From an uncultured Chloroflexota bacterium (GTDB lineage Bacteria; Chloroflexota; Chloroflexia; Chloroflexales; Chloroflexaceae), in contig CAKZKA010000231.1 of the NCBI GenBank assembly GCA_937120965.1, forward strand, positions 1-43,215: DNA of 43,215 nucleotides, written 5' to 3'. Positions 22,162-26,885 of this stretch are shown here, in pieces. Numbering within the stretch: position 1 is the stretch's first letter; every line of letters begins with the position of its first letter. The translations under genes and the position numbers were made by a program. The notes below the pieces were generated by a model, which was not told the DNA's origin, ran no database searches, and saw only the letters and a list, made by a program, of their open reading frames with translations.

Positions 22162-22602
22162 ATGTACAACGGGAATGGCTCAAATAATGGCGGCCGCTAT
22201 ACCCGCATCGCCGGCGTGCCGGTGAGGCCCGTCTACCTCTACATCGCTGGAGCGGTTGCCTTGCTGGTGGTAATCTATCTGGTGATGCGCTTCCTGAGCA
22301 CCAGTCTGGTCATGCACTTCAGCGCCTACGCGGGCGCGCTGCTGCTGATCGCTAACCTCCGCGAGTTACTCGGCAATAGCTACGGGCAGCGCGGCAGTAC
22401 GGCCCTGCTCAATGTCATGGTCGGCGGTGGGTTGATCTTCGCCTGGCTGAGCCAGTTCTTTGGCGTGCTCTTCTGGATCCCGGCGCTGATCCTGGTTGGC
22501 GTGGCCACCCCTCTCATCTTCGGGCGCGCAAACGTCTACAATGCCTACCTGGATATGGCCCGCTCGCTCGCCACCAACGTGCGCCGTACCTTCGTTCGCT
22601 GA
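22162..22602 (+). CDS. Small membrane protein of unknown function
   Basis: A 146-residue protein with a Gly/Asn-rich cytoplasmic start (MYNGNGSNNGGRYTR) and about four hydrophobic segments (about 26-43, 53-66, 82-98, 101-117). The C-terminus is basic (RSLATNVRRTFVR). AAGGAT five to six bases before the ATG supports the start, so the longer open frame from 22003 is not needed. It lies 97 bases downstream of gatC and could share its transcript. I do not recognise the family. Confidence 0.65.
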   Translation: MYNGNGSNNGGRYTRIAGVPVRPVYLYIAGAVALLVVIYLVMRFLSTSLVMHFSAYAGALLLIANLRELLGNSYGQRGSTALLNVMVGGGLIFAWLSQFFGVLFWIPALILVGVATPLIFGRANVYNAYLDMARSLATNVRRTFVR

Positions 22603-23705
22603 AACGCCGCTGTTGTGCAAGGCCGAGGCGGTTGCCCCGATGCCCATCCTGTCAGCCTTCAGGCAACATCAGGGTGGGCTTTGTGTTACCTGCGCGTTTC
22701 CCTCGTTCGTCGGAGGGATGGCATTCACCTGTACCGAACACGTAGGCAGCGCAGCGGGTGCGGAGAGACGCAGAGGACTTCATCAGGCCCATCCTCTGTG
22801 GTACGTAGGCGCTCACCCTTCCCCCGAGAGCGCGGGCAGCTTGCCCACATCCAGGCTATTGCGGGCGGGATGCCCGTGCACCCGGGGTGGCGCCTTGCCC
22901 CACGTGTGAACAGGTACTGCGGTACACTTGAACAGGTACGCCAGCGGTTGGCCGTGCTGACCGGTCGCGCCCTGGCGATCTCCGCGAGCGTCTGGACACT
23001 GTTCCCCATCGCCTGGAGCATGGCCAGTCAGATACACGGCTCACACAACTCGTCGCCAGGCAGGCGCTCGACCGCAGCCATTATCAGGCTGCCGGGCGTG
23101 GTTGGCACAATGGGCACACCGTAATCCGTGCCGTTCATCAAGCACCATTCCCCGGGGCGCCGCACAACCACGAAATGAAACGAGCCAGGATGGCTGCGCC
23201 CACCCAAACCCTCCCGGTCGGCCCGACGTCCGCCGTTGACACGCCCCGCCGGGCCGCCTCTGGCCCCACCCGGCAGGCTCATCGTCACGCGGGTGTCAGG
23301 CAAAACACCGGTTCACCCCTTCCCCGAGGCTTTAGAGGCGGACAGAACATCCGAGCCAACGTGGCTTGTACCGCCTTGGAACGCCCCTGCGCACGGCTCT
23401 AGTCTCCCCGCTTCGACAGGCTCAGCGCAGGCTCTCCAGCGAAGCTGGAGAGGGGGGTTAGGACCAACCAGCGCATCCCAACGCCATAACGCCCGTCGGC
23501 GCCCATACGTTCTGTCCGCCCCTGGATCCAGATGCCAGGGCGTCGGGGGTCAGGAGTGATGTATACTACGGTCGCTCACGTGGCTGCGCTGCGCACCACC
23601 GCGATGCACAAGGGTGTTCTTGGGAGGACTGCATCCTCCTGATCGAGCTGAAGCGTGGGAAGCATGGTTTCTACGCTCCGTTGCTCGCCTGTGCCGTGAG
23701 GATCT
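22603..23705. other. Long intergenic region with family A repeat and REP-like motif
   Basis: An 1103-base spacer. It holds a full family A repeat (22811-22911), a REP-like GCTTCGACAGGCTCAGCG at about 23409 followed by a CTCTCCAGC/GCTGGAGAG hairpin, and a short family B-like segment at about 23612-23640. A reverse frame at 23028-23303 (TTG start, 91 codons) has a partly protein-like end but no ribosome-binding site, so I do not call it. A TATACT at 23562-23567 may be a -10 box for the next gene; no -35 is visible. Confidence 0.55.
22811..22911 (+). repeat. Interspersed repeat family A, full copy
   Basis: This 101-bp element runs from GCTCACCCTTC to GTGTGAAC, with internal GAGCGCGGGCAGCTTGCCC and CCCGGGGTGGCGCCTTGCCCC. 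It is the same length as the copies at 36599 and 39550. Confidence 0.8.
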
Positions 23706-25235
23706 ATGTCATCAAGTGATCTGGAGGGGATTCAATTTCTGGCGGGTGAAGACGGTGACCGCAGCAGCACCCGCGCCAACAAGGCCATCTGCAGCGCGGC
23801 GCTGGCCCGGGTGGATCCCCAGGCGGCCCGGGCCGCGCGCGATGAGGTCAACTGGCGCAAACACTACCCCCGCCACATTCGCGCTCTGACCGAAGCCGGC
23901 ATCGCCCGCCCTGAGAACGCGCTCACGATTGCAACCGACGGGTTGGCTGCTGCCTGGCAGCAGGTCGAGTTCATCCGCGACGGTGTCGCCTATCCGCTCG
24001 CCGAGGCGATGAATTGCCCCCGGCCCGAAGCGCTCTTCAGCGTCGAACTCCGCGGCCAGGGACCACCGGACATCGAGCCCTGGTCGCTACCGTACCGCGG
24101 CCGGCAACTTCAGGGAGAGGAATTGCGCGCCCAGATCGCCCGCTGGGAGCAGGCCGGGGTCATCGAACCCGGCCTCGCCCAGACCCTGCACCGGGTCAGC
24201 GCGCATCCCGAGTGGTTCGACCTCTCCGATCGTACACTCGTGCTGCTTGGCGCCGGATCGGAGGCCGGGCCGCTCGCGGCCCTGGCGCGCTGGCGTGCCA
24301 ATATCGTCGCGATAGATCTGCCCGACGCGGCCCGCTGGGAGCGCATCGCCAGCATAGTTGCCGCCGGTAACGCCCGCCTGATCGCGCCGGTGCGCCAGCC
24401 GGTCGCCCCTGATGCGCCAGTGGAGCAGTGGGCGGGGTTGGCCGGCGCCGATTTGCTCACCCAGACGCCGGAAATCGCCGCCTGGCTGCGCTCCCTTGAT
24501 ACACCCCTGGACATCGCCGCGCTGGCCTATCTGGACGGCGAGCGCCACCTGCGAGTGTCGCTGGCGATGGACGCCATCATTGCCAGCGTCAGCGCTGCCC
24601 GGCCAGAGACGACGCTCATGTACATGGCCACGCCCGCCGATGTGTTTGCGGTTGATGAGACCCTGGCCCGCGCAACGATGCAGCCTGCCGCCCAGGCGCG
24701 TCCACTGGGCAGCATTGCTACCGGCGTGCTGCGCGGGCTGAGCGGCGGGCGGCTGCTCCAACCCCACGTGCGCGGCCTGCTCGACGGCGGCAACGGTAAA
24801 CGCTATGGGATCGTGGACGGGATCTTCATCGAGCAAGGGCCGAACTACGCCCTGGCCAAGCGCCTCCAGCAGTGGCGCGCCATCACCGCCCGTGCCGCCG
24901 GGCAGCGCGTGGCGATCAACGTGACCCCCTCAACCATGACCCGCTCGGTGATCAAGAACCCCGCCCTCAAGGCCGGTTACGATGGGGCCGACCTGTTTGG
25001 GATCGAGATCTTTGACCCCCGGACCACCAGCGCCCTCATGGCCGCGCTCTGGGTGCACGACCTGCGCTGCCGCGACTGCGCCGCCGATCCCGCCTATCCC
25101 CTGGCCAGCCCGCTGGAGCTGCTTACCGCAGGCGCCAACCACGGCGGCCTGTGGCGCTGCGGCTTTCTGCCCCGCACGGCACTCCCCCTGGCCGCGCTGG
25201 TCGGCTATGTGCGCGGTAAGGTGCGACGAGCCTGA
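23706..25235 (+). CDS. Rossmann-like protein of unknown function
   Basis: A 509-residue soluble-looking protein that I do not recognise. A dinucleotide-binding-like strand-loop-helix is visible near residues 178-205: TLVLLGAGSEAGPLAAL with G182, G184 and G188, then a NIVAID strand ending in an acidic residue, as expected for NAD(P) or SAM binding. The N-terminal 170 residues are helical and charged. A conserved-looking segment GKRYGIVDGIFIEQGPNYALAKRLQQW lies near 366-390. The C-terminus holds a CxxC pair (C455, C458) in DLRCRDC and another Cys in GGLWRCGF, which might bind metal. No signal peptide or membrane helix. It stands alone between long spacers. A short-chain or saccharopine-type dehydrogenase is possible, but no family signature is decisive. 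Confidence 0.75.
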   Translation: MSSSDLEGIQFLAGEDGDRSSTRANKAICSAALARVDPQAARAARDEVNWRKHYPRHIRALTEAGIARPENALTIATDGLAAAWQQVEFIRDGVAYPLAEAMNCPRPEALFSVELRGQGPPDIEPWSLPYRGRQLQGEELRAQIARWEQAGVIEPGLAQTLHRVSAHPEWFDLSDRTLVLLGAGSEAGPLAALARWRANIVAIDLPDAARWERIASIVAAGNARLIAPVRQPVAPDAPVEQWAGLAGADLLTQTPEIAAWLRSLDTPLDIAALAYLDGERHLRVSLAMDAIIASVSAARPETTLMYMATPADVFAVDETLARATMQPAAQARPLGSIATGVLRGLSGGRLLQPHVRGLLDGGNGKRYGIVDGIFIEQGPNYALAKRLQQWRAITARAAGQRVAINVTPSTMTRSVIKNPALKAGYDGADLFGIEIFDPRTTSALMAALWVHDLRCRDCAADPAYPLASPLELLTAGANHGGLWRCGFLPRTALPLAALVGYVRGKVRRA

Positions 25236-25562
25236 ACCGGGCGTTAGTTCACGCGTGGCTTCACTGCATACCACGAGAACAAAAAACAGTGGTGGAGCAA
25301 GCGGGTTGCTCCACCACTTCTCCCCGGCAGCCTCACGACGGCTGCGCCCTCCTGCACCCTCCCCGCCGGTAGGGCGTGGGGAAATCAGATTTCCCCGCTC
25401 TCCGACCGCTGCCGGGGGCACTTGTCATACCAATGCTGCTTGACGGCCTCGCACTGGATAGCTCCACATCTCCACAACTCTACAGCTCCACCAGGCCCTC
25501 TGTGGAGATGCAGAGCTGGAGAGCAACGGTAACGTTGCTATAGCCACTATATGAACCTTGCC
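25236..25562. other. Convergent intergenic region with bidirectional hairpin
   Basis: A 327-base spacer between two converging genes. It contains the terminator hairpin (25277-25320), a GGGGAAATCAGATTTCCCC palindrome at about 25379-25397 related to the family B core, and a region of repeated CTCCAC/GTGGAG words (25460-25525) that can form an imperfect hairpin. No ORF. Confidence 0.55.
25277..25320 (-). terminator. Strong hairpin terminator, T-run on the reverse strand
   Basis: Arms GTGGTGGAGCAA (25289-25300) and TTGCTCCACCAC (25306-25317) are perfectly complementary with a five-base loop. On the reverse strand the stem is followed by TGTTTTTTGTTC, the pattern of an intrinsic terminator for the asnS transcript. 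It lies about 245 bases past the asnS stop and 54 bases past the stop of the forward gene, so it may serve both. Confidence 0.7.
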
Positions 25563-26885
25563 TCAGGGATAAATCCTGTACAACATGCGCGGAAAAGGAA
25601 TGGCCTCACGGATGTGACGGGTGCCAGTGATCCAGCATACGGCGCGTTCAATGCCCATCCCAAAGCCGCTGTGGGGGACTGTGCCATAGCGTCGCAGGTC
25701 GAGGTACCACTGGTAATCCTCGAGATTAAGCCCGTACTCGCGAATGCGCCGTTCCAGGAGCTCCGGGTCATGGATGCGCTGCGAGCCGCCAATGATCTCA
25801 CCATAGCCTTCCGGGGCCAGCAGATCAGCGCAGAGCGCCACCTCGGGACGATCCGGGTCAGGTTGCATGTAGAAGGCCTTGATCGCCGCGGGAAAGCGTT
25901 CGACAAAAACGGGCCGGTCGAAACGCGAGGCGATCAATTGCTCGTGAGGCGCGCCGAAATCCTCTCCCCAGGGCAGGGGATCGGCGCCCTCTACCTCCCC
26001 CTGGTGCGCTGCAATGATCTGGAGCGCCTCATCGTAGCTGATCCGCGGAAAGGGTGGCACACAGCGCTCCAGCGCCGCTGTGTCCCGCCCAAGCACCTTC
26101 AGGTCCTCGGCACGACGCTCCAGTACCCGCTGCACAATCGCGCTGACGAACCGTTCCTGTAACGCCAGGTTGTCATCATGGGTAGCGAAGGCCACCTCCG
26201 GCTCGATCATCCAGAACTCGGTCAGATGGCGCCTGGTTTTGCTCTTTTCTGCCCGGAAGGTGGGGCCAAAACAGTAGACCTTGCCGAACGCCATCATCCC
26301 CGCTTCAACGTAGAGCTGGCCAGTCTGCGCCAGGTAGGCCTTGCCAAGATCGAAGTACTCGGTGGCGAAGAGGTTCGTCGTACCCTCGGCGGCGGTCGCC
26401 GTGAGGATGGGGGTATCGAAGCGCACAAAGCCCTGCGCATTCAGCCACTCCTGTGCTGCGGCAATCACTTCGGCGCGCACCCGCAGCAAGGCGTGCTGCT
26501 TTGCCGAGCGCACCCATAGGTGACGGTGCTCCATCAGGAACTCGACCCCGTGCTCTTTGGGCGTGATCGGATAATCTACGCTCTGGCCGACAATGTCCAG
26601 ATCCTCCACCGTCAGTTCGTAGCCGCCAGGGGCGCGCGCGTCGGCTCGCACCGTCCCTGTGACGCGCAATGCGGTCTCCTGGGTCAACGCCTGCGCTCGT
26701 GCAAATACCGCTTCGCTCACCTGCGGTTTGAACACTACGCACTGCATTGTTCCGCTGCCATCGCGTAATTGAATAAAGATCAACTTGCCTTTCTCGGTCT
26801 TGTTGTACACCCACCCGGCCAGGGTCACCTGCGCCCCCTCGTAGGCCCCGATGGTAGCAACCGAAGTGGTTGGCAGCAGAGACAT
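25563..26885 (-). CDS. asnS: Asparaginyl-tRNA synthetase
   Basis: A 440-residue class IIb synthetase that charges tRNA-Asn. The N-terminal OB-fold anticodon-binding domain (about 17-105, [24 protein letters not shown]) is followed by the class II core. Motif 2 is [10 protein letters not shown], then [13 protein letters not shown], and motif 3 is [15 protein letters not shown]. The segment [13 protein letters not shown] and IKAFYM near the active site fit AsnRS rather than AspRS. GAGGAG eight bases before the ATG supports the start. It is divergent from the M20 peptidase gene. With AsnRS present, the Asp-tRNA-Asn branch of GatCAB is probably not needed. Confidence 0.95.

Follow-up and report, generated by a model that had tools for sequence, protein, structure and literature searches.

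The gene at positions 23706–25235 (plus strand) of a 43,215-nt Chloroflexaceae contig (the window, that is, the whole stretch of DNA analyzed) encodes a 509-residue protein that we read, with a probability of about 0.68, as an oxidoreductase, soluble and probably NAD(H)-dependent, from a divergent, unnamed family of the SDR superfamily carrying a new N-terminal domain. The family, its fold match and its residue conservation were established computationally, and from these we infer the cofactor, the chemistry and the residue roles.

A protein-coding gene under selection

The 509-codon open reading frame, whose translation was confirmed, occupies exactly 23706–25235, and alignments with orthologues begin at the first residues of its product; a possible ribosome-binding site (GAGG, 23698–23701, plus strand) lies 4 nt before the ATG. 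Compared with four Chloroflexota orthologues, the gene shows a dN/dS of 0.12–0.20 and differs mostly at third codon positions, which together mark it as functional. Judged by these comparisons, by the 63 related loci recovered in a scan of GTDB genomes and by a confident AlphaFold2 model (below), this is a real gene, coding and under selection. Its codon use and GC had been described as resembling those of its neighbors; the resemblance is a loose one, with GC (0.695) and GC3 (0.82) somewhat above the values of the four neighbors checked (0.62–0.66 and 0.74–0.78, respectively).

The 1103-base spacer reported upstream is present, the preceding same-strand reading frame ending at 22602, and neither the spacer nor the surroundings of the gene gave an Rfam match; the gene would be expressed from its own, putative promoter. 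The strong hairpin noted downstream is likewise there (25288–25318, outside the gene). Because its T-run lies on the minus strand, it is most likely the terminator of a convergent asparaginyl-tRNA-synthetase-like gene (25563–26885, minus strand) rather than that of the gene studied here.

Sequence searches place the family only marginally

The original prediction of a protein matching no familiar family was correct at the sequence level, since searches of Pfam, NCBIfam, PADLOC and PDB sequences returned no match even at E 10. One weak match (E 0.0044), over residues 163–235, was to a PHROGs family of unknown function. SDR models (the Pfam adh_short family and NCBIfam) matched no family member at E up to 10, and keyword searches of the open-access literature found no published description of the family.

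A profile of the family, searched against 400 Chloroflexota genomes, yielded only two marginal non-family matches (E 8e-4 each), both SDRs and both aligned in register with the glycine loop; these came from the profile search itself and hence are no independent sample. Sets of SDRs, epimerases and methyltransferases taken from the source genome itself formed a separate comparison, in which the median profile score was 0.9 bits for SDRs, −4.1 for epimerases and −4.15 for methyltransferases. SDRs outscored both methyltransferases (Mann-Whitney p 3e-4) and epimerases (p 6e-4), with related sequences counted as independent, and the best-scoring SDRs aligned over residues ~154–242, the glycine loop falling in SDR register (FDLSDRTLVLLGA / L.GKVALITGA); the epimerase set did no better than the methyltransferase set. 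These scores bear on the idea that the protein is a methyltransferase dependent on S-adenosylmethionine, its motif I being GAGSEAG. By eye, this loop and the acidic end of beta-2 that follows it do resemble that motif, but methyltransferases score below SDRs, are absent from the top 50 structural matches described below and have Pfam models that match no member of the family, and we regard this assignment as highly improbable.

Profile–profile comparison (hhalign) with 19 SDRs of the same genome was not significant (probability 7–26% at best), its matches spanning about 40–60 residues in the glycine-loop region and leaving the YxxxK half unmatched; a direct profile–profile link over the whole core was accordingly rejected. 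This result and the missing SDR Pfam and NCBIfam matches count against the SDR-oxidoreductase reading. Because the sequence evidence for SDR membership is only marginal, the assignment to the superfamily leans mainly on the predicted fold and on invariant motif residues that occur in the right order.

The predicted fold is that of an SDR with an additional domain

An AlphaFold2 model built from a 43-row alignment reached a pLDDT of 93.5 and a pTM of 0.93. When this model was compared with the PDB using Foldseek, 49 of the top 50 matches were SDR-superfamily proteins (classical SDRs, epimerase/dehydratases and reductase domains), with probabilities mostly of 0.97–1.00 and a best E of 6.1e-4. 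The protein had been called Rossmann-like, and rightly so; what had been left as an anonymous Rossmann fold resolves in the model to the SDR superfamily (Foldseek probability 1.00), still with no sequence family, and the match is confined to the C-terminal two-thirds (residues ~170–509). TM-scores rise to 0.66 when normalized by target length (8y11) and reach at most 0.34 by query length, so that no solved protein in the PDB matches the whole chain. No full-length match to a characterized dehydrogenase or methyltransferase emerged, the N-terminal third matching nothing in the PDB, and the proposed novelty of the protein withstands this comparison.

In SDRs, the catalytic Ser lies just after beta-5, and YxxxK opens a later, long helix ahead of beta-6. 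The DSSP order of the model runs beta-1 (177–181), glycine loop, beta-2 (199–203), D204, beta-3 (224–229), beta-4 (268–272), beta-5 (303–308), T309, an insert, a helix (379–397) that opens with Y381 and K385, and beta-6 (402–406), and this predicted strand and helix order is that of an SDR. The fold search gives no residue map, and the placing of T309, Y381 and K385 in three dimensions is taken from this secondary-structure order.

Likeness to the classical, FabG-like SDRs (3pk0, 3rih, 8y11, 3awd) covers the predicted Rossmann topology of residues ~170–509, the altered glycine loop after beta-1, an Asp ending beta-2, a Thr or Ser placed by DSSP after beta-5 and a YxxxK opening the long helix before beta-6. 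Unlike these enzymes, the window protein has an N-terminal domain of ~170 residues, an invariant Glu for the second glycine, an insert of ~60 residues that separates beta-5 from the catalytic helix, and C-terminal HD and HGG motifs, and over most of the core it shares no significant sequence match with them. Extended SDRs and reductase domains (the 4-epimerases 4lis and 7xpo, the terminal R domain 4u7w and the carboxylate reductase 8aep), also larger than classical SDRs, are among the fold matches as well, but their target-normalized TM-scores are lower (0.33–0.39) and they offer no matching counterpart of the N-terminal domain.

That domain (residues 1–170; 23706–24215, plus strand) is predicted to be mostly helical with two short hairpins. 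Modeled alone, it gave a pLDDT of 90.6 and a pTM of 0.62, and Foldseek found no credible PDB fold match for it (best E 2.4). The lower pTM of the isolated domain suggests that it packs against the core, and for this reason we treat a new fold as a lead.

Conserved residues outline a putative active site

Conservation was counted over 44 close relatives (branch 1, to which the window protein belongs) and 10 distant ones (branch 2), 54 sequences in all. Residues G182, A183, E186, G188, D204, T309, Y381, K385, H451, D452, H479, G480 and G481 are invariant among the 44 close relatives. The GAGSEAG loop named in the original prediction is indeed present after beta-1 (residues 182–188; 24249–24269, plus strand) and probably represents an altered SDR glycine loop: relative to the SDR pattern TGxxxGxG, the family has GAxxEAG, in which the first and last Gly are kept in branch 1 and the middle Gly is Glu in 54/54. 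G182, A183 and E186 are invariant in both branches. Conservation of G182, G184 and G188 had been put forward as a check on the protein, and the three fared differently, with G182 invariant, G188 kept in 44/44 close relatives and lost in branch 2, and G184 often replaced (Ala in half).

The cofactor would sit at this loop (G182-A-x-x-E-x-G188), with D204 at the acidic end of beta-2 (24315–24317, plus strand; 54/54) reading the adenosine ribose. As a general SDR rule, an Asp in this place favors NAD(H) over NADP(H), and D204 would predict the same preference here. T309 (24630–24632, plus strand), placed after beta-5 by DSSP, is Thr in 44/44 of branch 1 and Ser in 10/10 of branch 2 and probably takes the position of the catalytic Ser. 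The block VDGIFIEQGPNYALAKRL, previously singled out as distinctive, is present; it contains an SDR-type YxxxK (Y381 and K385; 24846–24860, plus strand) at the secondary-structure position expected of an SDR. T309, Y381 and K385 may be viewed as a putative catalytic Ser/Thr-Tyr-Lys group, in which the Tyr would serve as acid/base when a carbonyl or alcohol accepts or donates hydride. Together with the fold matches and the strand and helix order, the conservation of Y381 (54/54), K385 (44/44 of branch 1), D204 and the Thr/Ser at 309 counts for the SDR reading, and the invariant Glu in place of the second SDR-motif Gly and the absence of K385 from branch 2 count against its oxidoreductase form.

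Branch 2 came to light in a search of Myxococcota, as a distant set of ~460–510-residue proteins with 21–24% identity (loci L100–L105 and L226–L229). All ten retain Y381, with Gln replacing K385 and Lys at position 389, which is held by Gln in 41/44 of branch 1. The two branches thus display an ungapped Lys/Gln exchange one helix turn apart (YxxxKxxxQ in branch 1 versus YxxxQxxxK in the myxococcal branch 2), and the YxxxK motif itself is found throughout branch 1 only. Among known enzymes, the enoyl-ACP reductases FabI and FabV have a divergent SDR fold in which the catalytic Lys sits farther down the helix, at about Y-x6-K in FabI and Y-x8-K in FabV, and FabV is also enlarged. Their shift recalls the Y-x7-K of branch 2; the window protein differs from both in its classical YxxxK spacing, and the Pfam enoyl-reductase models (FabI/FabV) gave no match. 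Loss of the catalytic Lys in branch 2, the divergent glycine loop and a stand-alone gene lacking conserved neighbors would suit a non-catalytic SDR-like protein, redox-sensing or regulatory, that binds NAD. Given that the putative catalytic residues are very strongly conserved in branch 1 and that no DNA-binding or other output domain was recognized, we consider such a role improbable.

Two further motifs lie near the C-terminus: H451-D452 (25056–25061, plus strand), nearly invariant in both branches (H 53/54, D 54/54) and a candidate for substrate-site residues, and H479-G480-G481 (25140–25148, plus strand), invariant in both (54/54). That these are kept across branches and K385 is not, that E186 invariably replaces an SDR glycine and that epimerase/dehydratase structures occur among the fold matches would all agree with an SDR fold put to other chemistry, whether NAD-assisted epimerization, dehydration or isomerization, or a non-redox reaction using H451, D452 and H479 in a reused Rossmann pocket. 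Classical SDR oxidoreductases nevertheless score best in the fold search and YxxxK is kept in 44/44 of branch 1, making this alternative unlikely. Under the oxidoreductase reading, the insert (about 310–372), H451-D452, H479-G-G and the N-terminal domain (1–170) would shape an unusual substrate site. A bolder proposal, which we offer tentatively and with perhaps one-in-several odds, is that the family founds a new enzyme class: it would join an SDR-derived domain to one of new fold, build its substrate pocket around the invariant H451-D452 and H479-G-G and catalyze a reaction not known for SDRs, its two branches having exchanged the helix Lys and Gln.

The late CxxC pointed out earlier (C455 and C458; 25068–25079, plus strand) is present as well. 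It is fixed only in Chloroflexota members (9/9); elsewhere C455 is mostly Asn, Thr or His and C458 mostly Ser, Ala or Glu, and on these counts the motif has no family-wide meaning.

The family is patchily distributed across three phyla

The related loci come from Chloroflexaceae and their kin, Acinetobacter and Alkanindiges, Burkholderiales (Inhella, Aquabacterium, Rubrivivax and others) and Myxococcus/Pyxidicoccus, with orthologues in three phyla. Carriers made up 13/158 genomes of the class Chloroflexia, 22/119 of the Acinetobacter family, 16/96 of the Myxococcus family and 1/300 of the sampled Burkholderiales, this one being the query genome, which was again the single carrier (1/398) in a sample across the same proteobacterial phylum; the distribution is patchy. 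In a quick tree with branch 2 as the outgroup, the Chloroflexota members form one clade inside the proteobacterial and myxococcal tree, sister to the Acinetobacter group, a placement that fits horizontal transfer, the direction of which lies beyond such a tree.

A viral origin was rejected, as nothing was found in IMG/VR or, at E 0.001, among viral predicted structures. Matches labeled "Acinetobacter phage" are surrounded by chromosomal genes (fepA, dsdA, metH) and look like bacterial contigs. In one of them (L231, CAKLQH020000010.1, labeled "Acinetobacter phage MD-2021a"), the orthologue is surrounded by fepA, dsdA, pitA, metH and dxs-like genes arranged as in two A. baumannii records (L108 and L109); this record is probably a bacterial contig mislabeled as phage. 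Plasmid matches were mostly chromosome-sized or chromosome-like records; the two A. baumannii records just mentioned (CP040048.1 and NZ_CP043459.1), large and filed as plasmids, place the orthologue among nfuA, dsdA and metH, a setting that suggests pieces of chromosome.

Gene context and regulation

Context had earlier been said to give no hint; no neighbor is common to different phyla, and the recurring neighbors reflect synteny within Acinetobacter. Some hosts are wax-ester makers, and a link to wax esters was rejected, WS/DGAT (PF03007) being found in only 4/7 of the genomes that carry the gene, with no match in that of Chloroflexus. With no conserved neighbor and this link unsupported, we name no substrate. 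A metallo-beta-lactamase-fold protein, recognized by eye and presumably of the persulfide-dioxygenase-like type, is encoded close to the family gene in two myxobacteria, one of branch 1 (L022, 4950–5846) and one of branch 2 (L226, 770–1663). It is divergent and adjacent in one of them and lies at a distance of about 4 kb in the other; this may be chance.

One Acinetobacter species group has a strongly conserved promoter region, AATTTTGGTAGTTAATGCCAAC-N8-GTTGGCATAGATAATGTATACATCTGTATATTAAT, ~20–100 bases upstream of the orthologue (loci L021, L023–L027, L034, L036, L041, L048, L060, L071 and L074), which contains TGCCA-N15-TGGCA and, as a second inverted repeat, TATACA-NN-TGTATA. An exact copy of the box TTGGCAT[A/G]GATAATG precedes 12 orthologues and is found at no other place in the 762 kb searched, in which the TATACA-NN-TGTATA repeat was not found elsewhere either. 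This arrangement suggests regulated, monocistronic expression in that Acinetobacter group, and the repeats are a possible repressor operator.

Discussion

A family of hypothetical proteins common to phototrophic Chloroflexaceae, Acinetobacter (including clinical A. baumannii), Burkholderiales and myxobacteria is thus no longer fully unknown, and residues that can be tested are given. Its case indicates that an entire SDR-like family, invariant YxxxK included, can go unnoticed by Pfam and NCBIfam, and it brings to light an N-terminal domain that has no solved relative. Furthermore, the helix Lys, standing at different places in the two branches, constitutes a natural experiment on the plasticity of the SDR active site.
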